A stretch of 64,000 nucleotides of DNA from Hylemonella sp. (GTDB lineage: Bacteria; Pseudomonadota; Gammaproteobacteria; Burkholderiales; Burkholderiaceae_C), in NCBI RefSeq assembly GCF_027532185.1, contig NZ_JAPZSV010000007.1, positions 1 to 64,000 on the forward strand, given 5' to 3'. This document shows, piece after piece, positions 10,071-22,697 of this stretch. Within the stretch, counting starts at the first letter, position 1, and each line of letters opens with the position of its first letter. Both the position numbers and the translations under genes were made by a program. The notes beneath the pieces were generated by a model. That model searched no databases. It saw only the letters and a program-made list of their open reading frames with translations, and was not told the origin of the DNA.

Positions 10071-10781
10071 ATGACATCCGAATCCAGCCTGCACCAGCGC
10101 CGCCGCGCCCTCACCGAATCCGAGCTCGCAGGCATCCCCTGGCTGCCGCGCCTGACGGCCGAGGAGCGCGCCTACGCCGTGGCCGAGCTGCAAATCACCG
10201 AGGCCCTGCCCGGTGATCTGGTCTGCCGCATCGGCCGGCCCGTGACCTACTGGTTCGGTGTGGTGGACGGCCTGCTCAAGATGAGCGGCGAGAACGCCGA
10301 CGGCCAGTCCGTCACCTTCACCGGCCTGCCGCCCGGCGGATGGTTCGGTGAGGGCACGGTGCTCAAGCGTGAGAGCTACCGCTACAACGTGCAGACGCTG
10401 CGCAAGAGCCTGGTGGCCGGCCTGCCCGTGGACAGCTTCCACCGCCTGCTCGACCAGTCCATCGGCTTCAACCGCTTTGTCATGAACCAGCTCAACGAAC
10501 GCCTGGGCCAGTTCATCGCCGCGCGCGAGATCGACCGCCTCAACAGCCCGGATCTGCGCGTGGCGCGCAGCCTGGCCGCGCTCTTCAACCCCGTGCTCTA
10601 CCCCGGGGTGGGCGAGATGCTGCGCATCACCCAGCAGGAGCTGGCCTACCTCGTGGGCCTGTCACGCCAGCGCGTCAACGAGGCCCTGGCCACGCTTGAA
10701 GAGCTGAACCTCATCAAGGTGGAATACGGCGGCCTGCGCGTGCTCGACCTCAACGGTCTGCGCATGCTGCGCACGATTTGA
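10071..10781 (+). CDS. Crp/Fnr-family transcriptional regulator
   Basis: 236 aa. It has a cyclic-nucleotide-binding-like beta roll at about 30-125 (PPGGWFGEGTVLKRESYRY is the phosphate-cassette region), a dimer helix at about 125-160 and a winged helix-turn-helix at about 165-235 with recognition helix LSRQRVNEALATLEEL. There are no N-terminal cysteines, so it is not an FNR-type iron-sulfur sensor. Compared with E. coli Crp, the DNA-contacting Arg180 is kept (R199) but Glu181 and Arg185 align with Gln and Glu, which predicts a changed half-site. It is encoded divergently from the CoA synthetase-ABC operon and is a good candidate for its regulator. The effector is unknown. Confidence 0.9.
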   Translation: MTSESSLHQRRRALTESELAGIPWLPRLTAEERAYAVAELQITEALPGDLVCRIGRPVTYWFGVVDGLLKMSGENADGQSVTFTGLPPGGWFGEGTVLKRESYRYNVQTLRKSLVAGLPVDSFHRLLDQSIGFNRFVMNQLNERLGQFIAAREIDRLNSPDLRVARSLAALFNPVLYPGVGEMLRITQQELAYLVGLSRQRVNEALATLEELNLIKVEYGGLRVLDLNGLRMLRTI

Positions 10782-10911: not shown

Positions 10912-12999
10912 TCAGAGCGGCACGTTCAGCCGCGCGCCCAGCGTCCAGTTGCGGCCGGGTGCCGGCTCGTAAAACTGGAGCGCGGCCTGGTTCACGATGA
11001 CCGAGCCCACATAGGCCTTGTCGCCCACGTTGTCCACGCGCGCATACGCCGTCAGGTTGCCCTTGCCCAGCGCCCAGCCATGGCTGGCCTTGAGGTGGAC
11101 GACGGTATAGCCGTCGGCGCTGGCCGTATTGGTGTCGTTGGCATAAAGCCGCCCGGCCCGCACCAGCTCCACGCCGGCCTGCGTGCCCAGCCGCGTGGGG
11201 CGCGCCACGTCCAGCCGCGCGCCGGCCCACAGCAGCTCGCCAAACAGGAAGTTCTGCGGAATCCCCGGCAGCTTGTTGCCATCGGCCACCGGCGTCGTGC
11301 CGTTGGTGAAGGCTTGGCTGTAGCGCGCATCAATGGAGCTGGCCGAAAGCAGCGCGCGCCAGTGCGGATTGAGCAAGGTACGGCCCGCGAGCTCCCAGCC
11401 CGTGCGTGCGGTGCCCGGCGCGTTCTTGAAGGCGGACTGCCCTTGCACCGTGCGCTGCACCACGATCTCGTCCCGGGTGTCGATATTGAAGAAAGACAGA
11501 TCAATCCGGCTGCCCTGCGCAGGCACCCATTTGGCTCCCGCTTCAAGGTGGCGACTGCGTGCGGCAGCCAGGGTGGTGTTGAACGTCGGCGTCAGCGGTG
11601 TTGCACCGTTATCCAGATAGGCCACTTCCACCAGCGTGGGGGTCTCGAAACCCTTGCCGTAGTTGGCGTAGAGGTTGAGCGTATCGGCGGCGTGCCAGGT
11701 GAGGCCCAGCACCGGGTTGCTCGCGCTGTAGCGCACATCGCCGGAGCCGCTGCCATTGCTCAGGAAGTAGTCTTCACTGCTGAGGCGCACGGTGCTGCGA
11801 CGCACGCCACCCGTGAGCGACCAGCGCTCGGCCAGCAGAGCCGTGCCCTGCACGAACACATCGCTGTTCTCCGACTGGTTGTCCTCGTCGCGGCTCAGCG
11901 AGCCGTCCTTCTCGCCGCCAGGTGAGGCGCCGCCCTGGCGGCGCTCGATGGCGCGGTCGAACTCGTAGCCCGCCACCCAGCGCAGCGGCGTGGCGCCGAT
12001 GCGCGTCTGCGCGTTGTACTGCAGGCCCGTGCCGTAGTAGTGCCGATCCAGCCCAACCCAGTTGCCCGATGCCAGGTACTGCAGGTTGTCGCGCGTGCCG
12101 AAGTAGAGGCGCGCGGTCAGGCTGCTGTCGCGGTCCAGCTCGTGCGTGATCGAGCTGCCCAGCTGGTTCTGGCGCGTGATCTTGCGTGTGCGCTGCGTCA
12201 GCGCGCCGTTGCCGGCCAGTCGGGGGTTGGCCGCCAGCTGCGCCGCCGTGAGCCCCAGCGGATCCTCCGCCAGCGGCATGTCGAAATGATTGAACACCAG
12301 GTTCACGCGCGTGCCCGCGTCGGGCCCGAAGCTGATCTTGCTGTTGAACTGCTTGCGCTCGGTGGCGCTGTTGTCGCGGTAGCCGTCAGTGCTCAAGGTG
12401 CTGTAGTCGGCCACCAGGCCCACGCTCCCCACGCGGCCGGCCATCTGCACGTCGCTGCGCCGCAGGCCGTAGGAGCCCACATAGCCCTGCACGCTGAACT
12501 CCGGCACCTCGGGCGCCTCACGCGTGAAGGCCTGGATCACGCCGCCGGCCGAGTTGCCGTACATCAGCGCCAGCGGCCCGCGCAACACCTCGATGCGCTC
12601 GGTGGACGTGAGCGCGATGGACGAGCCCTGCCCCTGCCCATCGGGCGTGGTGGCGGGAATGCCGTCGATCAGCAGGCGGATGCCGCGGATGCCAAAGGCC
12701 GAGCGCGCGCCGAAGCCGCGGATCGACAGCTGCAGATCCTGCGCGTAGTTCTGCCGGTTCAGGATGGTCAGGCCGGGCACACGGGTCAGCGACTCCGAGA
12801 GGTTGACCTGCGGGCCTGCGCTCTGGATGGTCTCGCGCTCCACAGCCTCCACCGCCGCCGGTGCATCGAAGCTGCGCTGCTGCGCGCGCGAGGCCGAGAT
12901 CACCACGTCTTCCAGGGTCTGGTTCTGGCTCCAGGCTGGCGCGCTGCCCAGGCCGGTCACCAGCAGGGCCAGCCCCATCTTTCTTCTTGTGTGCTTCAT
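10912..12999 (-). CDS. pqqU: TonB-dependent outer-membrane receptor, PqqU/YncD-like (predicted PQQ importer)
   Basis: 695 aa with a signal peptide (to about residue 25), a TonB-box-like LEDVVISA, a plug domain at about 40-160 and a 22-strand barrel. The plug holds NLSESLTRVPGL, NRQNYAQDLQLSIRGFGAR, GIRGIRLLIDGIPAT and PDGQGQ; the end holds YVGSVIVN and FYEPAPGRNW. These stretches match what I remember of E. coli YncD, shown to be the pyrroloquinoline quinone importer PqqU, almost word for word, and the length agrees (YncD about 700 aa). It ends in Leu instead of the usual aromatic residue. It is the last gene after a PQQ-type dehydrogenase and a cytochrome c, which supports PQQ as cargo. The identification rests on memory, not an alignment. 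Confidence 0.88.
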   Translation of the reverse strand: MKHTRRKMGLALLVTGLGSAPAWSQNQTLEDVVISASRAQQRSFDAPAAVEAVERETIQSAGPQVNLSESLTRVPGLTILNRQNYAQDLQLSIRGFGARSAFGIRGIRLLIDGIPATTPDGQGQGSSIALTSTERIEVLRGPLALMYGNSAGGVIQAFTREAPEVPEFSVQGYVGSYGLRRSDVQMAGRVGSVGLVADYSTLSTDGYRDNSATERKQFNSKISFGPDAGTRVNLVFNHFDMPLAEDPLGLTAAQLAANPRLAGNGALTQRTRKITRQNQLGSSITHELDRDSSLTARLYFGTRDNLQYLASGNWVGLDRHYYGTGLQYNAQTRIGATPLRWVAGYEFDRAIERRQGGASPGGEKDGSLSRDEDNQSENSDVFVQGTALLAERWSLTGGVRRSTVRLSSEDYFLSNGSGSGDVRYSASNPVLGLTWHAADTLNLYANYGKGFETPTLVEVAYLDNGATPLTPTFNTTLAAARSRHLEAGAKWVPAQGSRIDLSFFNIDTRDEIVVQRTVQGQSAFKNAPGTARTGWELAGRTLLNPHWRALLSASSIDARYSQAFTNGTTPVADGNKLPGIPQNFLFGELLWAGARLDVARPTRLGTQAGVELVRAGRLYANDTNTASADGYTVVHLKASHGWALGKGNLTAYARVDNVGDKAYVGSVIVNQAALQFYEPAPGRNWTLGARLNVPL

Positions 13000-13026
13000 A
13001 TCGCTTCTTGTGCTCGTCTCGTCAAT

Positions 13027-13356
13027 TCATTGTTCTTCCACGCGCAGCTGCAACGAGGCATACCACCGCGCCAGGTTATCGATGTCCTGGTCGCTCAGCG
13101 GCTTGGCGATCACGCTCATCACCTCGTGGTGGCGCTTGCCGCTGCGGTAGTTGCGCAGCTGCTCCACCAGGTAGATCTCGGGCTGCCCGGCCAGGTGCGG
13201 CACATTGGGCTGCATGGACAGACCTTGCGGGCCATGGCAGACCGCGCAGGCGGTGGCCGCGCGCATCTTGCCCGCCACCACATCAGCCTGCGCCGTTGTT
13301 GCCAGGACCAAACCAAGGCCAGCCCACAGGCTGGCCATCATCATGCGTTGCTTCAC
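13027..13356 (-). CDS. Small periplasmic cytochrome c
   Basis: 109 aa from a GTG at 13356, preferred because GGGAG lies at proper distance and it gives a normal signal peptide (MKQRMMMASLWAGLGL..TTAQA); the upstream ATG at 13395 has neither. One heme site, CAVCH (residues 37-41), with PNVPHLAGQPEIYLVEQL and HHEVMSVIAKPLS as the distal segment, where Met could be the sixth ligand. It belongs to the small c-type cytochromes that accept electrons from periplasmic dehydrogenases. It lies between the PQQ-type dehydrogenase gene and the receptor gene, so it is likely the dehydrogenase's electron acceptor. Confidence 0.9.
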   Translation of the reverse strand: MKQRMMMASLWAGLGLVLATTAQADVVAGKMRAATACAVCHGPQGLSMQPNVPHLAGQPEIYLVEQLRNYRSGKRHHEVMSVIAKPLSDQDIDNLARWYASLQLRVEEQ

Positions 13357-13421
13357 GCCAAGCTCCCACTCAAAAAAAGCGACGGAGATCGTCACGACCT
13401 CCGTCGCATCACTCAGTCCGC

Positions 13422-14702
13422 TCAGTTGCTGTAGGTCACGCGGTAGATCGCACCCACATAGTCATCCGAGATCAGCAGCGAGCCGTCCTTCATCACGGCC
13501 ACATCCACCGGGCGGCCCTTGTAGACGCCGTTGGCGTCCAGCCAGCCCTCGGCAAAGACCTCGTGCTTGCCCGCCGTGCCATCGGGCTTGATCGCCACGA
13601 AGTCGATCAGCGCGCCGCTGGGCTTGCTGCGGTTCCAGGAACCGTGCGCGGCCACGAAGACGCCGCCCTGGTACTTGGCCGGGAACATCTTGCCGTTGTA
13701 GAAGGTCATGCCCAGCTGTGCCTGGTGCGCCGGGAACTCCACCTGCGGCTTGGTCCATTTGGCCGGGGCCTTCATGTCCTTGAGATCGGGCGCGGCCGCG
13801 GTGCCGGCGATCTGCACATTGTTGCCGTGGATGAAGGGGTAGCCGAAATGCTCGCCGCCCTTTTGCGTGATGCGGTTGAGCTCGCCGGGCGGGATGTCAT
13901 CGCCCATGCCGTCGGTCTGGTTGTCGGTGAACCACACGGTCTTGTCGCGCGGGTTGATGTCCATGCCCACCGAGTTGCGCACGCCCACGGCTACCACCTC
14001 GCGCTTGGAACCGTCGAATGGGTCCAGCGCGATCATGCCGCCGATGCCGATCTTCTCGTACAGCGCCACCTTCTCCTTGGGCTGCACGTTGTAGGGCTGG
14101 CCCAGCGTGATGTAGAGCCTGCCGTCGTCGCTGACGCGGCAGGTGCGCGCGCCGTGGTTGAAAGACTCCTCGTCCTCGGGGATCAGCTTGCCCTGCGGCA
14201 CCACCTCGATCACCGCCACGTCGGGGCCCTCGTAGAAGAACTCGGCCGCCGGGAAGTTGAGCACGCGGTTGTGCTCCACCACGATCAGGAAACCGTCCTT
14301 GGTCCAGCACACGCCGTTGGGCACCTTGAAGTTCAGCGAAGGCGCAAAGGCCTTGACCTCGTCGGCCGCGCCGTCACCGTTGCGGTCCGTCACGGCCCAC
14401 ACGCGCGTCTTGCGCGTGCCCACGAAGAGCATGTTGGTGGAAGGCGCCACCGCCATGTGGCGTGCATCGGGCACCACCGCGTAGAGCTCGATCTTGAAGC
14501 CCGGCGGCATCTTGATGTTCTTCAGATTGGCGCGGATCGCGTCGGCGTTGCGCCCTTCCTGCGGCACCACGGGAATGTTCAGATCGGTGGTGGCCACCTT
14601 CATCTGTTTGAGCGTGGACAGGTTGTCCCGGCCCGACTGTGCACCAGCCGCCGCGGCGAAGCCCGCCGCGAGCAGGGCGATGCCCAACTTGCGTGTGATC
14701 AT
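13422..14702 (-). CDS. PQQ-type sugar/sorbosone dehydrogenase-like protein
   Basis: 426 aa with an AGAGGAG ribosome site and a signal peptide (MITRKLGIALLAAGFAAAAGAQS). The mature protein is a beta-propeller of the soluble glucose/sorbosone dehydrogenase family: PPGFKIELYA at the first blade, MAVAPSTNMLFVGTR, VRNSVGMDINPRDKTVWFTDNQ, FGYPFIHGNN, HQAQLGMTFYNG and GRPVDVAVMKDGSLLISDDYVGAIYRVTY at the last blade. Enzymes of this family use PQQ and oxidise aldoses or aldehydes in the periplasm, passing electrons to cytochromes. The substrate here is unknown. It is the first gene of the operon dehydrogenase-cytochrome-PqqU-like receptor. Confidence 0.88.
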   Translation of the reverse strand: MITRKLGIALLAAGFAAAAGAQSGRDNLSTLKQMKVATTDLNIPVVPQEGRNADAIRANLKNIKMPPGFKIELYAVVPDARHMAVAPSTNMLFVGTRKTRVWAVTDRNGDGAADEVKAFAPSLNFKVPNGVCWTKDGFLIVVEHNRVLNFPAAEFFYEGPDVAVIEVVPQGKLIPEDEESFNHGARTCRVSDDGRLYITLGQPYNVQPKEKVALYEKIGIGGMIALDPFDGSKREVVAVGVRNSVGMDINPRDKTVWFTDNQTDGMGDDIPPGELNRITQKGGEHFGYPFIHGNNVQIAGTAAAPDLKDMKAPAKWTKPQVEFPAHQAQLGMTFYNGKMFPAKYQGGVFVAAHGSWNRSKPSGALIDFVAIKPDGTAGKHEVFAEGWLDANGVYKGRPVDVAVMKDGSLLISDDYVGAIYRVTYSN

Positions 14703-15043
14703 GATTGGCTCCTCTGGATTTTCTTGCTGTGGTCCGGCACGCCGCCCGGCGCACCGGTGAGGCGATTAAGCACACGCCATCCACGGCACGCAAGGTGGTC
14801 AAACGCTAGTCATGTTCGCAGTGGGGCTGTTATGTCTCGATTTGGAACACTCGCTGCAAGGCGCGTCTCGACCAATCACCACCAAAGCATTTGTCCAGAG
14901 CAACGGCGCCTGCTCATCAATATTTCTTATATCGCTTAGTGTCCGCAGCGCATGAGCTCTCCGTGGAAACCCTAGATGAACCAAAGTGCACCATGCCTAG
15001 CATCAAGCGGTTTCGCACAAAAAAACTTCCTCAGGAGATCCAC
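14703..15043. promoter_or_regulatory. Divergent promoter region of the two PQQ-type dehydrogenase genes
   Basis: 341 bp without a credible gene. An AT-rich block near 14919-14937 (AATATTTCTTATATCGC) is the best -10 region for the plus-strand gene, leaving a leader of about 100 nt. On the minus strand TTGACC (14802-14797) is a possible -35, but no good -10 follows it. No clear operator dyad was found. Confidence 0.4.
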
Positions 15044-16315
15044 ATGCGCAAGTTCATTCCCCTGGCAGGCGTGCTGCTGGCCGCTGTGCTGGCCGGCTGC
15101 CAGTCCACCCCGCCGCAATCTGCGGTCACCACCACGCCATCGGCGGGCGCGGTACCCGCGGGCCAGCCGGCCTGGAAGCAGGGCATGGGCGCCAACATGG
15201 CCAGCTCCACCCTCGCGCCCCTACCCGGCAAGAACACGGTGACCACGGCCGCCGAGATCCCGCTGGACAGGCTGCGCCTGCCGCCGGGCTTCAAGGTTGA
15301 GGTCTGGTCCACCGGCACGCCTGGCATCCGCGCCATCAGCCGCGGCGAGAGCGGCAAGATCTACGGCGGCACGCGCGGCCTGGGCCGGGTGTACGAGATC
15401 ACCGACAACGGCAGCAGCCGCACCAGCCGCGTGGTGGTCGACAAGCTCAAGCAGCCCGCCGCCACCATCCACAACGGCAATCTCTACGTGATGGCCATCG
15501 ACAAGGTGCTGCGCTTTGACGGCATCGAGAAGAACCCCAACGTGGCCCCGGTGGACATGACGGCCGCCTTCAAGCTGCCGCCGCTGGAGCACCACAACTG
15601 GAAGTACATCCGCTTCGGGCCGGATGGCAAGCTCTACGTGCCCTTCGGCGCACCGTGCAACATCTGCACCCTGCCCACGGATGAGTACGCGCAGATCCGC
15701 CGCTACAACGCCGACGGCTCGGGCATGGAAGTCATCGCCACCGGCGTGCGCAACACCGTGGGCTTCGACTTCCACCCCGTCACCAAGGAACTCTGGTTCA
15801 GCGACCACGGCCGCGACTGGATGGGTGACGACGGTCCGGAAGACGAGCTCAACCGCCTGCCCAGCCCCTCCTGGTGGAAGCTGGGCATGGGTGGCACGCC
15901 CTTCTTCGGCTTCCCCTACTGCCATGCCAAGGGCATCGCCGACCCGGACGTGAAGAAGGCCAACCCCTGTGAGGGCGTGACCCTGCCCGTCACCACCGTG
16001 GGCCCGCACGCCGCGGCCATGGGCGTGCACTTCTACACCGGTGACATGTTCCCGCCCGTGTTCAAGAACGCCGCCTTCGTGGCACGCAAGGGCTCGTGGA
16101 ACCGCAGCACCAAGTTCGGTTTTGATGTGGTGGCCGTCACCGCCAACCCCGACGGCAGCGGTGCCACCGTCACGCCCTTCATGACCGGCTTCGCCGACCC
16201 CGCGGCCAACACCTTCTGGGGCCGTCCGACCTACTTCCTGCAGATGCCCGACGGCGCCCTGCTGGTCTCTGATGAGCAGACCGGCGCGATCTACCGCGTG
16301 TCCTACGCCAAGTAA
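15044..16315 (+). CDS. PQQ-type sorbosone dehydrogenase-like lipoprotein
   Basis: 423 aa. The ATG at 15044 follows AGGAG and opens a lipoprotein signal with lipobox LAGC (Cys 16 or so), so the enzyme should be membrane-anchored in the periplasm. The propeller landmarks parallel the divergent paralogue: PPGFKVEVWSTG, IRFGPDGKLYVPFGAPCNIC, VRNTVGFDFHPVTKELWFSDHGRD, FFGFPYCHAKG, GPHAAAMGVHFYTG, FVARKGSWNRS and the closing PDGALLVSDEQTGAIYRVSY. PCNIC and the downstream CHAKG..NPCEG supply extra cysteines that the other dehydrogenase lacks and that may form disulfides. It is followed by a terminator and then a di-heme cytochrome c. Confidence 0.9.
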   Translation: MRKFIPLAGVLLAAVLAGCQSTPPQSAVTTTPSAGAVPAGQPAWKQGMGANMASSTLAPLPGKNTVTTAAEIPLDRLRLPPGFKVEVWSTGTPGIRAISRGESGKIYGGTRGLGRVYEITDNGSSRTSRVVVDKLKQPAATIHNGNLYVMAIDKVLRFDGIEKNPNVAPVDMTAAFKLPPLEHHNWKYIRFGPDGKLYVPFGAPCNICTLPTDEYAQIRRYNADGSGMEVIATGVRNTVGFDFHPVTKELWFSDHGRDWMGDDGPEDELNRLPSPSWWKLGMGGTPFFGFPYCHAKGIADPDVKKANPCEGVTLPVTTVGPHAAAMGVHFYTGDMFPPVFKNAAFVARKGSWNRSTKFGFDVVAVTANPDGSGATVTPFMTGFADPAANTFWGRPTYFLQMPDGALLVSDEQTGAIYRVSYAK

Positions 16316-16337
16316 GACCGCGCGACATCTGAAGACA

Positions 16338-16366
16338 GGCAGGGCCCGCAAGGGCCCTGCCTTTTT
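16338..16366 (+). terminator. Strong rho-independent terminator
   Basis: Perfect stem GGCAGGGCCC-GCAA-GGGCCCTGCC followed by TTTTT. It lies only 12 bp before the ATG of the next cytochrome gene, so that gene is either expressed by readthrough or from a promoter inside this short region. Confidence 0.92.
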
Positions 16367-16378
16367 ACTGAGCCAGCC

Positions 16379-16969
16379 ATGAAGCCCTGTTCTCTCCCCC
16401 TCCTGCGCTCCCTGCTTGGCGCGCTGCTGCTCGCTGCCGGCCTGAACGCTCAGGCTCAGCAGCCGCCGCGCCTCGAACTTTGCGCCTCCTGCCACGGCCC
16501 GCAAGGCAATTCGCAGATCCCGCAATTCCCCTCGCTCGCCGGCCAGCCGCGCATCTTCATGGAGAACCAGCTCGTGCTCATCCGCGAAGGGCTGCGCGAC
16601 ATCCCGCCCATGAAGGGCGTGCTCGACGGCCTGGACGACGCGGCGCTGATCGAACTCGCCAAGTACTACGCCGCGCAGGCGCCCGCCCCCATGCCCGGCG
16701 CCGTGGACGCCGCACGCTACCAGCGCGGCAAGGACCTGGCCGCCACCAGCCTGTGCGGCAGCTGCCACCTGCCCGACTACAAGGGCCGCGACCAGATCCC
16801 CCGCCTGGCCGGGCAGCACGAAGCCTTCCTGCGCGAGGTCATGCTTGAGTACCGCGACAAGCCCGGCCCGGGCCGCGACACCGTCATGACCAACGCCCTG
16901 CGCGGCTTCAGCAACGCCCAGCTCGACGAAATGGCGCACTTCCTGGCGCATTTCGGCAAGCAGCCCTGA
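16379..16969 (+). CDS. Di-heme periplasmic cytochrome c (c4-like)
   Basis: 196 aa with a signal peptide ending near AQAQ (residue 27). Two heme sites: CASCH at 35-39 and CGSCH at 126-130, each followed about 40 residues later by a Met-containing segment (PPMKG and TVMTNAL), the layout of cytochrome c4 and related two-domain cytochromes. It probably carries electrons from the PQQ-type dehydrogenases towards the terminal oxidase. The strong terminator just upstream separates it from the dehydrogenase gene. Confidence 0.92.
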   Translation: MKPCSLPLLRSLLGALLLAAGLNAQAQQPPRLELCASCHGPQGNSQIPQFPSLAGQPRIFMENQLVLIREGLRDIPPMKGVLDGLDDAALIELAKYYAAQAPAPMPGAVDAARYQRGKDLAATSLCGSCHLPDYKGRDQIPRLAGQHEAFLREVMLEYRDKPGPGRDTVMTNALRGFSNAQLDEMAHFLAHFGKQP

Positions 16970-19993: not shown

Positions 19994-20019
19994 AAAAAAC
20001 CGCCTCCGGGCGGTTTTTT
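19994..20019. terminator. Bidirectional rho-independent terminator
   Basis: AAAAAACCGCC-TCCG-GGCGGTTTTTT: the A and T runs on both sides make it work in either direction. It serves htpG on the plus strand and the nuclease gene on the minus strand, whose stop codon (20020-20018) lies in the T run. Confidence 0.9.
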
Positions 20020-21040
20020 ATGCGCGCGTTGATTCAAGCGCGCCAGTACGACGCTTGCGTGCCTCTCGGTGCATCGTGACGGGCGTAATCCCGAGTACGC
20101 GGTCCACCATCGCAGCCAGAAAGCGGCTAGGCATCAATTCTTCCGGCGTCACATCCAGTCGCAATCGCACTTTTGGCAAACCCGCGATTGCCTGGTCTAC
20201 GTCGTCATTGGCGACCGGGGCTGCGTCCTCTTCATCTTCCAAGCCAGGTTCCGCTAGAGCCTCGACGGCTGGCGCCTCTCCATCGTCGGGAAGCGTAACG
20301 CCATCGCCGTATTCCATCAACACAAGGCCAGTGGAGTGGTAAGCATCATCCTCACGCCCGAGCTTGGTCAAAAGGTCAAACAGCCACTCGGCAGTTGCTG
20401 GCTCCTCGTGCAAAATCACTGAGTTCAAACCAAACATAAAGCCCAACGCAGCGAGTGGATGTCGCAGCCGAAGATTCTTAGCGTCACCGTAAGATTCTTC
20501 AATGCGGTTTGGAGCGTTTTTACCAAACGACGAGTCCATGCGCTTCGTGGAGATTAAGAGCTCGGGCCCCGTTGACCAATCGGTGATGATGACGTCGACC
20601 TGCTTGGTGTAGTTCTTCCCCAAAATCGATGCACTCGATGCGGTGACACCTTTAATTGCACTCTTACGTTCCAACTTCGCCTTGACCTGACCCGCCTCTT
20701 TAGTCGTAAGCTGGTCGAGGAGACTAGCAACCGAGGACGGCAGAACCCGCGGGTGTGTCGGACGCGGCCATGTTTGGTCTGTCCCAAAGCCTGCCCGTCT
20801 CAGCTCATAGCTGAGCCATACGTCAAGAGCCAGCGCCGGTACGCCAGACTGGGTGTTTGCCTTCAAGTAAAGTGGTACGCCGAGCAACAAGCAAAGTGTG
20901 TCGTAGTCCGGCTCGAAGTGTCGCCTACCTTGTGAATCCCTCACCCACGGATTCGTATGCTCGCCCTTGGGCGCTGCTCGGTCGACGATTCGATCGAAGA
21001 TAGCCCATGCTTTGACTTTGGCGGACATCTCAGTTGCCAC
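20018..21040 (-). CDS. Putative type II restriction endonuclease partner of the adjacent methyltransferase
   Basis: 340 aa if started at the GTG at 21040, which has GGAGAT 8 nt upstream; an ATG at 21028 is possible. The start overlaps the methyltransferase gene by 11 bp, the tight coupling of a restriction-modification pair. I do not recognise the family by name. The strand pattern QVDVIITD..PELLISTKRM (about 147-168) looks like a PD-(D/E)xK nuclease core, but the position before xK is Ser instead of Asp/Glu (STK). FGKNAPNRIEESYGDAKNLR follows. A Pro/Glu/Asp-rich acidic linker lies at about 255-285. Codon use is less GC-biased than in neighbours, which suggests horizontal acquisition. Cutting specificity is unknown. 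Confidence 0.6.
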   Translation of the reverse strand: MATEMSAKVKAWAIFDRIVDRAAPKGEHTNPWVRDSQGRRHFEPDYDTLCLLLGVPLYLKANTQSGVPALALDVWLSYELRRAGFGTDQTWPRPTHPRVLPSSVASLLDQLTTKEAGQVKAKLERKSAIKGVTASSASILGKNYTKQVDVIITDWSTGPELLISTKRMDSSFGKNAPNRIEESYGDAKNLRLRHPLAALGFMFGLNSVILHEEPATAEWLFDLLTKLGREDDAYHSTGLVLMEYGDGVTLPDDGEAPAVEALAEPGLEDEEDAAPVANDDVDQAIAGLPKVRLRLDVTPEELMPSRFLAAMVDRVLGITPVTMHREARKRRTGALESTRA

Positions 21041-22697
21041 TAGTCGATCTCCTCTCTCTCCGGTTGGCGAGCAGCTCGCGCGCAGCCCGCATCCGTCCAA
21101 CTTGCTCGATCGAGAGTACACGCCCGTCGATGAGAAGGGCTCGATCGACTAGCTTCACGGCCTCCAAAAGACGCCCCGTGGCTAACAGGTCTGCTACCCG
21201 ATTCTTGATGGAGCGCAAGGCTACTCTGCGAGAGCGCACCAAGCCATAGGATGGCACCGCCCAAAGATCGGCTTCTTTTGGCTCGATCTTTAAAATACCA
21301 CCTCCGTAAGCTCGCCCCACCATTTCGGCGTGCATCAAAGTCACAGAGTTCAAGCTCGCCAGAGACAGCAACTCGCACCCCATTTCGCGCACAACCTCGC
21401 GCAAATAGACCCCGTGCACAGAGTTAAGGTGGTAGGCTCCAGCCTCATTCGCCACGAGCCTCGGCGTGTCGGCATTCATGCAGGTCAGAAGCAAGTCAGC
21501 GGGGCGCACGAGTGGGACGCGATACCAAACCTTGCGCACGCGGCACTTATAGGCCGTATCTACACCTGTGCGATGCCCGTCCTCAATGTAAGCCTCGGCC
21601 GCCTTCGAAGGCTTTGCCCGCGGGTAGAAGAGCAGCGTCGACTGGCCACCTTTGCCAAGCTCCGCCAATAGCTCTGGAGTTAGCGTCAGACCTCGCAAAT
21701 GAGCGCTACCTGGTGGCGAGAGCGGCAAAAGCTCGCTTGAGCGTAGCCCGAGCTCCTGAGCCCGACCAGGCGAGAGGGCAAAGTATCTATTGTTTCCGGT
21801 GACGATTCCGAGCGTTGTGTCGCCCCAGACCTCGAGTGGCGCAAAGTAGCCGCCAGAGGTGAGCGAGCTCAAGGCATCGAGAGCGGCTTGATCGACGAGG
21901 CTGCCTATCCATTTCCCGGCGGGATCAGCTGGCTTCCATGCTTGACCAGCCTCGAGTGTGACGAGACTCTCCGCATTCTTTGTCTGCCGGATCGTGGCGT
22001 AGCCCGCCGGCCCCTCGCTGTACCCTTCAGCGAGCAGCAGCACAACATCGGCGTCGGCCTCGGGAAACACTTGCTGGGCGAACAAGACAAGCTCCACACA
22101 GCGAAACCGGTCGAAGAGGAACTGTCGCACCGGTGCCGCGTAATTGACCGTCAGCAACTCCGCAGGAAGCACAAGACCAAGGCGCCCACCTGGTTTTAAG
22201 AACAGAGCTGAGTGGACTGTGAAAGCGGCCCAACTAGAAGCCAGCCCCGAAAGTGCGACACCACCTCGAAAGGCTGCTTGGCGTGACTTCGCGCGCGCTT
22301 CACCCGAAAAATTCTGATAACGGATGTAAGGTGGATTGCCGATCACCGCGTCGTAGATGGGCTCGGGGGCAATATCAAAGAAATCGCTCTCGCGCACATG
22401 TGGCTTACCCCCAGCATTACGAATTCGCTGACGGGCGATCTTCGCACTGTGGGCATGGATCTCGAACCCGTCGACCTCGGGCTCAGATACCTTGCCACGA
22501 CGCAACTTCGAGAGACGTTCAACCGCCGCGACGAGGAAGGCGGCATCTCCAGCCGACGGCTCCATGATTCGGTCGGCACCAGTTCGAATCGCCCAATTCG
22601 CGACGAACGCCGTGATGGGAGCTGGCGTGAAGAACGCTCCGCGTTCTTTTCTGAGCGCGGGAGTATCTTTGGGGTGAACAAGGCTAGAGGAGACCAC
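21030..22697 (-). CDS. N6-adenine DNA methyltransferase (type II, gamma-like with NPPY)
   Basis: 555 aa starting at a GTG. It has the motif X region RGAFFTPAPITAFVANWAI (20-38), SAM-binding motif I MEPSAGDAAFL (45-55), DGFEIHAHSA (motif II) and the catalytic motif IV NPPYIRYQNF (121-130). The second half, with GGYFAPLEVWGDTTLGIVTGNNRYF and VWYRVPLVRPADLLLT, resembles the target-recognition part of TaqI/Eco57I-type enzymes. It should methylate adenine in a specific DNA site and protect the host from the nuclease encoded right after it. A TAGAAT hexamer 6 nt before the GTG suggests a leaderless mRNA. Lower GC than the core genome around it. Confidence 0.88.
   Translation of the reverse strand: MVSSSLVHPKDTPALRKERGAFFTPAPITAFVANWAIRTGADRIMEPSAGDAAFLVAAVERLSKLRRGKVSEPEVDGFEIHAHSAKIARQRIRNAGGKPHVRESDFFDIAPEPIYDAVIGNPPYIRYQNFSGEARAKSRQAAFRGGVALSGLASSWAAFTVHSALFLKPGGRLGLVLPAELLTVNYAAPVRQFLFDRFRCVELVLFAQQVFPEADADVVLLLAEGYSEGPAGYATIRQTKNAESLVTLEAGQAWKPADPAGKWIGSLVDQAALDALSSLTSGGYFAPLEVWGDTTLGIVTGNNRYFALSPGRAQELGLRSSELLPLSPPGSAHLRGLTLTPELLAELGKGGQSTLLFYPRAKPSKAAEAYIEDGHRTGVDTAYKCRVRKVWYRVPLVRPADLLLTCMNADTPRLVANEAGAYHLNSVHGVYLREVVREMGCELLSLASLNSVTLMHAEMVGRAYGGGILKIEPKEADLWAVPSYGLVRSRRVALRSIKNRVADLLATGRLLEAVKLVDRALLIDGRVLSIEQVGRMRAARELLANRRERRSTSGN

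Follow-up and report, generated by a model that had tools for sequence, protein, structure and literature searches.

A probable gene cassette for scavenging pyrroloquinoline quinone in Hylemonella sp.: a PqqU-type receptor beside AA12-like dehydrogenases and cytochromes c

A stretch of 64,000 nucleotides from Hylemonella sp. (order Burkholderiales; positions 1 to 64,000 of contig NZ_JAPZSV010000007.1, assembly GCF_027532185.1), called the window below, contains a group of five genes that we read as a probable cassette for the uptake and use of the cofactor pyrroloquinoline quinone (PQQ) (Table 1). The minus strand carries the genes for a TonB-dependent receptor resembling the Escherichia coli PQQ importer PqqU (also named YncD), a small mono-haem cytochrome c and a dehydrogenase of the GSDH family (GSDH1), and a second dehydrogenase (GSDH2) and a di-haem cytochrome c are encoded divergently on the plus strand. 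This anatomy was already given in the initial annotation, and every part of it was found again, with matches above the respective Pfam gathering scores for the TonB barrel and plug, for GSDH in both dehydrogenases and for cytochrome c in both small proteins. By reading, GSDH1 has a signal peptide and GSDH2 is a lipoprotein with a LAGC lipobox; the open reading frame of the latter extends from 14891 to 16315 (+), with the lipoprotein start at 15044. A longer reading frame of the mono-haem cytochrome, 13027-13395 (-), would begin at 13395, inside a terminator-like hairpin.

Table 1. Features of the predicted PQQ cassette and the adjoining regulator gene, in window positions
Feature	Position	Strand	Basis or remark
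PqqU-type TonB-dependent receptor (predicted PQQ importer)	10912..12999	-	39% identity to E. coli PqqU; kept residues
Small mono-haem cytochrome c	13027..13356	-	PF00034, one CxxCH; start probably the GTG at 13356
Terminator-like hairpin with T run, in the gap between dehydrogenase and cytochrome c	13379..13407	-	
GSDH1, AA12-like six-bladed dehydrogenase	13422..14702	-	PF07995, family profile, predicted fold, residues RHRNHHWNR
Intergenic stretch between the divergent genes, presumed site of both promoters	14703..15043	.	Gene positions
GSDH2, second AA12-like dehydrogenase	15044..16315	+	PF07995, residues RHRNHKWNR, 32% identity to GSDH1
Terminator-like hairpin, in the gap between second dehydrogenase and di-haem cytochrome c	16337..16362	+	
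Di-haem cytochrome c	16379..16969	+	PF00034 in two stretches; two CxxCH
CRP/FNR-type regulator, convergent with the receptor	10071..10781	+	PF00027 and PF13545

In a phmmer search, the best PDB chains for the receptor were those of E. coli YncD/PqqU (6v81 and 9c4o; E about 5e-116), and the next was FecA (8e-16). The identity to E. coli PqqU extends across 671 positions of a pairwise alignment, and both proteins contain NRQNYAQDLQLSIRGFG (then S for A) and YVGSVIVN, the plug and C-terminal stretches from which the initial annotation had recognized a PqqU-like protein. According to Munder et al. (2025, PMC12124388, used here and below in the part of the text available to us), the residues that matter in E. 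coli PqqU include Y99, R304, R365, K274, R536, Q84, Q121, Q308, Q310, N477 and Y481; F was accepted at Y99, and charge swaps at R304, R365 and K274 slowed the growth of E. coli. In E. coli numbering, the window receptor keeps R304, R365, K274, Q84, Q121, Q308 and Y481, and F replaces Y99. The signature taken from that study, an aromatic residue at 99 and Arg at 304 and 365, is present as F102, R303 and R354. It was retained at 213 of 213 pqqU loci (window included) versus none of the 10 other TonB receptors encoded in these loci, although the loci were chosen as best PqqU matches and this count is no independent test. Placement in another TonB subfamily, which the initial annotation had named as a refuting outcome, was not obtained, PqqU being the nearest receptor of solved structure, and a siderophore, haem or B12 receptor is ruled out by score and signature.

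Some observations weigh against this assignment. R536 is replaced by Q, Q310 by L and N477 by V, and the score to the NCBIfam PqqU equivalog NF041535 is 493.5 bits, where the cut-off is 1200 bits. That cut-off is reached in none of 399 Burkholderiales genomes and in 12 of 396 genomes of a phylum sample, all from one family; we regard it as a threshold for naming in a narrow sense and class the receptor by the published signature alone. The three replacements, together with the remark in the available text of PMC12124388 that identity alone does not settle specificity, would also suit a receptor that is PqqU by ancestry only and imports another compound, such as the dehydrogenase substrate or a metal complex. 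We consider this improbable, because R304, R365, K274 and the aromatic residue at 99 are retained, and because pqqU adjoins two kinds of six-bladed enzyme, eight-bladed enzymes or pqqC at 43 of the 81 loci described below, which the substrate of one enzyme would not explain. Judging from its sequence, the receptor probably imports PQQ.

The initial annotation had noted that no pqq genes lie in the window. In the whole host genome (3.33 Mb in 13 contigs, 100% complete), PqqB, PqqC and PqqD gave no match and PqqE gave none over its cut-off of 381 bits, with a single match of 52.8 bits; pqqA was not searched for. Sub-threshold PqqE matches were likewise seen in 14 of 14 control genomes. From this absence of pqqB-E, the host cell seems unable to make PQQ. 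No eight-bladed quinoprotein was found in this genome at E<=1e-20, a search in which E. coli gives a match, and the GSDH-family genes number five, namely the two of the cassette, two of the YliI type elsewhere (447 and 371 bits to PF07995) and a weak fifth one. The product of this last gene (GSDH3; L007:5340-6719, genome G000:C5, about 20 kb past the window) is weakly GSDH/AA12-like and lacks three of the nine PQQ contacts listed below (Trp-Asn and the last Arg); the gene is divergent from genes that read as frmA/fghA-like.

The two cassette dehydrogenases match PF07995 with 48.6 and 36.1 bits (gathering score, 25). A family profile made from a 30-member alignment around GSDH1, GSDH2 included, matched TrAA12 (1e-19) and CcPDH (4e-17) best in the PDB, and then Asd (3e-13) and sGDH (2.5e-7). 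An AlphaFold2 model of GSDH1 (pLDDT 87.4, pTM 0.87) retrieved four AA12 chains first in Foldseek, followed by bacterial PQQ sugar dehydrogenases, and the structural AA12 matches were 16-20% identical to GSDH1; GSDH2 was assigned by alignment only, the structure prediction having been made for GSDH1. The available parts of PMC6881789 and PMC6881810 give the PQQ contacts of CcPDH and TrAA12, to which the following positions of GSDH1 were matched: R81, H183 (the catalytic base), R242, N243, H326, H353, W356, N357 and R397. Eight of these follow a residue-by-residue alignment with TrAA12 (chain numbers shifted by 25), and R397 was paired with Arg621 of CcPDH only by its position near the C-terminus, where TrAA12 has no Arg. 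Eight of the nine positions are invariant across the 30 aligned sequences; all nine contacts are kept in GSDH1 and eight in GSDH2, in which Lys replaces His353. Furthermore, the set RHRNH[H/K]WNR occurs in 17 of 17 pqqU-adjacent dehydrogenases of the AA12 type (order sample and window).

Matches of the single sequences are less favourable to this assignment, since GSDH1 alone is best matched by E. coli Asd (1.9e-4), before TrAA12 (2e-3), and GSDH2 alone by the unrelated lipoprotein YfiB through its N-terminal region, the highest-ranked propeller reaching 0.007; the family profile also picks up unrelated propellers, such as the designed Pizza6 (2e-12). These weak matches to solved PQQ enzymes, the additional matches of the DUF7133 and Piru_Ver_Nterm profiles to GSDH1, and the incomplete contacts of GSDH3 in the same genome could indicate that the six-bladed proteins are lactonase-like or other propellers that do not use PQQ, and that the neighbourhood is about something else. 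We regard this as very unlikely in view of the contact set found in all 17 linked proteins, of a profile and a fold closest to PQQ enzymes, and of the cytochrome c gene that adjoins in 12 of 16 loci. GSDH1 and GSDH2 appear nearest to AA12-like six-bladed PQQ enzymes by profile, residues and, for GSDH1 only, predicted fold. The label sorbosone/glucose dehydrogenase used in the initial annotation is better replaced by AA12-like.

PqqU matches (E<=1e-60) were found in 133 of 399 Burkholderiales genomes of an order sample. Eighty of these, the host genome included, were retained (completeness 98% or higher, contamination 2% or lower), and pqqU was examined together with flanks of up to 7 kb in either direction. 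Genome G218 has two loci, giving 81 rows in the tree, and the second pqqU copies of G234 and G269 are outside the locus set. A six-bladed dehydrogenase gene lies by pqqU in 26 of the 80 genomes (16 AA12-type and 10 YliI-type; gap of at most 3.9 kb), versus 0.88 of 80 expected if the GSDH genes of each genome were placed at random, and a chance neighbourhood is rejected, although the genomes are not independent draws and the significance of such linkage counts is overstated. This was the survey of PQQ dehydrogenase genes beside PqqU homologues that the initial annotation had proposed, and its outcome favours the proposed association. With the host excluded, a GSDH-family gene is found by pqqU in 25 of the other 79 genomes. 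An eight-bladed dehydrogenase lies by pqqU at 10 further loci, and pqqC at 7. The reading direction is the same as that of pqqU for all 10 YliI-type enzymes and for 13 of the 16 AA12-type enzymes (the window being counted by GSDH1); a cytochrome c gene lies alongside in 12 of the 16 AA12-type cases (11 by the rule of the script, and L125 by eye) and in none of the 10 YliI-type cases.

The linkage is commonest in presumed PQQ scavengers: it was found in 24 of the 54 genomes that lack an above-cut-off PqqC versus 2 of the 26 that have one, and in 19 of 36 genomes without an eight-bladed quinoprotein versus 7 of 44 with one. Every one of these 36 genomes has at least one GSDH gene, and none has PqqC over the cut-off. 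On a quick PqqU tree, the label for an AA12-type neighbour needs 13 changes, at least 10 of them forced by starred branches; therefore, the pairing was made or lost many times, and a single origin of the cassette is rejected. This label is hardly more clustered than expected by chance (61 of 500 shuffles were as low). The YliI label, with 3 changes, is clustered, since none of 500 shuffles came as low. When the pqqU neighbours were clustered (14 loci were lost in gene picking), the GSDH family formed the largest cluster, with 14 loci, and three other clusters contained 8 loci apiece. Some species are common to the order sample and the 80 GTDB loci (L013 and L280 are apparently one record), and the counts of the two sets were not summed.

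Several findings limit the generality of this association. No recognized PQQ gene is nearby at 38 of the 81 pqqU loci, with the reservation that several pqqU regions end at contig ends and neighbours may be missed. A GSDH gene is present in 76 of 80 PqqU-positive versus 37 of 80 PqqU-negative genomes of the order, by which mere ubiquity of GSDH is rejected in part, but the PqqU-positive genomes seem larger by eye, and this would inflate the contrast. Outside Burkholderiales, a GSDH gene lies by pqqU in only 3 of 48 genomes, and linkage as a rule across the class is rejected; in the same 48 genomes, the eight-bladed type is by pqqU in 8 (six below 130 bits) and PqqC in one.

Within the host genus, PqqU is present in 16 of 26 genomes. 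GSDH1 and the cytochrome lie upstream of pqqU at 13 of the 14 genus loci that extend at least 1 kb there (window included), and the sole exception, L279 on a short contig, carries upstream of pqqU the terminal part of an eight-bladed PQQ dehydrogenase gene together with a cytochrome c gene (L279:3-916). In the window, the five genes are flanked by genes for an AMP-binding ligase and the CRP-type regulator on one side and by rluB-htpG-like genes (names assigned by reading) on the other; all five genes are found between rluB-htpG and the CRP-type gene at 11 of the 14 genus loci. The loci L270-L272, with PqqU identities of 94, 79 and 92%, encode a third six-bladed enzyme between the cytochrome and the receptor; it reads as a lipoprotein, and its gene is divergent from pqqU (L270:8421-9725 (-), 191.5 bits to PF07995). 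The receptor gene of the window is the last on the minus strand and stands tail to tail with the CRP-type gene. Where the genus loci extend sufficiently, a CRP/FNR-type regulator gene adjoins pqqU in most of them, and is 3.5 kb off in L273. Elsewhere in the window, at 20018-22697 (-), there is a gene for an Eco57I-like N6-adenine DNA methyltransferase, with an overlapping gene of 367 amino acids alongside; the product of the latter has no Pfam match and is perhaps a restriction enzyme.

The initial annotation placed the receptor, the small cytochrome and GSDH1 in one operon. The common strand and the short gaps agree with this, but a strong terminator-like hairpin follows each dehydrogenase gene, before its cytochrome gene (Table 1), and the minus-strand hairpin, by separating the dehydrogenase from the cytochrome and receptor, speaks against joint expression. 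By a fixed rule, hairpins were found at 24 of 38 dehydrogenase-cytochrome junctions versus 9 of 176 other tandem junctions in these loci and 6 of 700 random stretches; the 38 junctions are pooled from the two overlapping locus sets named above, and the control junctions are of any gap length. The junction hairpin spans several enzyme subgroups, and 14 junctions are without it. Since hairpins stand at these junctions, one simple operon is unproven. The neighbours may be transcribed separately, the receptor not being co-regulated with the dehydrogenase, as the hairpins in both gaps of the window and their excess at such junctions would suggest. We find this rather unlikely, because the gaps are short, the order is conserved through the genus, and a hairpin recurring at one gene border could tune ratios instead of ending the unit; leaky terminators within operons are known in general. 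The hairpin thus either ends the dehydrogenase transcript or, as a leaky terminator, gives more dehydrogenase than cytochrome and receptor, and we favour the second possibility because the gene order and the gap are conserved. In the divergent gap, no match to the sigma-70 consensus and only two short, imperfect palindromes were found, and a promoter with an operator was not upheld there.

Taken together, the arrangement of the genes is confirmed, and the interpretation of the initial annotation, that external PQQ is imported through a receptor encoded next to the enzymes that use it, is supported by the PqqU signature, the absence of pqqB-E, the enzyme profile, fold and residues, and the recurrent pairing. 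The computed basis consists of homology, signature and contact residues, the predicted fold of GSDH1, gene order, the missing pqqB-E genes and the recurrence of the linkage. The explanation that we consider very probable is a PQQ-scavenging oxidation cassette in a cell unable to make PQQ. In such a cassette, the receptor would take trace external PQQ across the outer membrane, powered by TonB, into the periplasm, where the exported GSDH1 and the lipoprotein GSDH2 would bind PQQ and Ca2+ and might oxidize a substrate resembling a sugar or an aldehyde. Electrons would then be taken up by the adjacent cytochromes c, one mono-haem and one di-haem, and passed towards the respiratory chain. Because the PQQ consumers would be periplasmic, no inner-membrane transporter of PQQ would be needed. 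PQQ import, formation of the holoenzymes, this path of electrons and co-expression of the genes are what we infer from these data.

A related pairing was observed in bacteria of the ammonia-oxidizer type. In genus g25, genes for ammonia monooxygenase (AMO) are present in 6 of 8 PqqU genomes, in three copies in four of the six, and this genus is presumably of the Nitrosomonas type. A YliI-type dehydrogenase gene lies at most 3.9 kb from pqqU on the same strand in 7 of the 8 genomes, within 200 bases in three, and the eighth genome has a YliI-type enzyme elsewhere. No eight-bladed enzyme was found in 7 of the 8, and in all 8 the PqqC-like match is of 57-67 bits, far below the 240-bit cut-off. 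The two genomes of the genus in the PqqU-negative control each gave a single GSDH match (57 and 65 bits), which is not of the YliI type. In the g25 PqqU proteins (L131, L155, L160, L167, L176, L179, L187 and L192), Glu stands for K274 and Asn for Y481; a K274 Glu variant was proposed to carry PQQ with a metal ion (PMC12124388). In the survey by Munder et al., 67% of PqqU carriers had a predicted PQQ-dependent dehydrogenase, and no PQQ enzyme was found in Nitrosomonadaceae, among others, for which the authors suggested another use of PQQ or an overlooked enzyme. In the available part of their methods, a profile from Diamond et al. and PF01011, PF13360 and PF13570 are given and PF07995 is not named; that the six-bladed family lay outside their search is judged from the named Pfams only, the coverage of the Diamond et al. 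profile not having been seen. YliI itself is a known PQQ-dependent enzyme of E. coli (PMC13088180, available part).

We therefore offer the six-bladed enzymes as assayable candidates for PqqU carriers without a recognized PQQ enzyme, those of the ammonia-oxidizer type included, and of all consequences of the finding, the YliI-type pairing in g25 is the most useful. The little-studied bacterial AA12-like proteins gain a predicted cofactor and electron acceptor. In a wider proposal, which we put forward tentatively and hold at slightly less than even confidence, PqqU would be the fixed element of an exchangeable cassette for PQQ scavenging, joined many times by six-bladed (AA12 or YliI) or eight-bladed dehydrogenases; the six-bladed enzymes would be the missing PQQ users of many carriers, ammonia oxidizers included, and a recurrent leaky terminator would set much enzyme against little cytochrome and receptor.

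Pairs of an eight-bladed quinoprotein and a dedicated cytochrome c are known, for example exaA-exaB and mxaF-mxaG. The cassette is like these in having a dehydrogenase gene followed by a cytochrome c gene, and unlike them in having a six-bladed enzyme and a cofactor importer. The receptor is like E. coli PqqU in the plug and C-terminal stretches and in the PQQ signature with K274, Q84 and Q121, and differs from it in its 39% identity, in F for Y99 and in Q for R536. The neighbours of pqqU in E. coli K-12 are mcbR and yncE, the latter annotated as a PQQ-like-domain protein and not as a dehydrogenase. Synteny of pqqU with pqq synthesis genes was reported in four Burkholderiales genomes in the available text of PMC12124388, in which, by a term search with supplements not covered, the words 'adjacent' and 'neighbor' are absent. 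No report of a linkage between pqqU and a six-bladed dehydrogenase was found in the literature searched, mostly at listing level and with supplements not covered. In their predicted six-bladed fold and PQQ-contact positions, the window enzymes resemble the CAZy AA12 enzymes CcPDH and TrAA12 and the homologous 2-keto-glucose dehydrogenase (PMC6881789, available part). Their identity to AA12 is low (16-20%) and the calcium-site residues differ in detail; unlike the fungal AA12 enzymes, they have no fused cytochrome b or cellulose-binding domain, and the c-type cytochromes are separate. They share the PF07995 superfamily with YliI/Asd, the soluble aldose sugar dehydrogenase of E. coli, and with the sGDH of Acinetobacter; the YliI/Asd type, the kind beside pqqU in the ammonia-oxidizer-type genus, is set apart from them by PF07995 scores of 447 and 371 bits in the host versus 48.6 and 36.1 bits for the window enzymes. 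Each part belongs to a known kind. Within the scope of the literature searched, the novelty lies in the cassette, in its recurrence among organisms that do not produce PQQ, and in the six-bladed enzymes as candidates for the missing PQQ enzymes.

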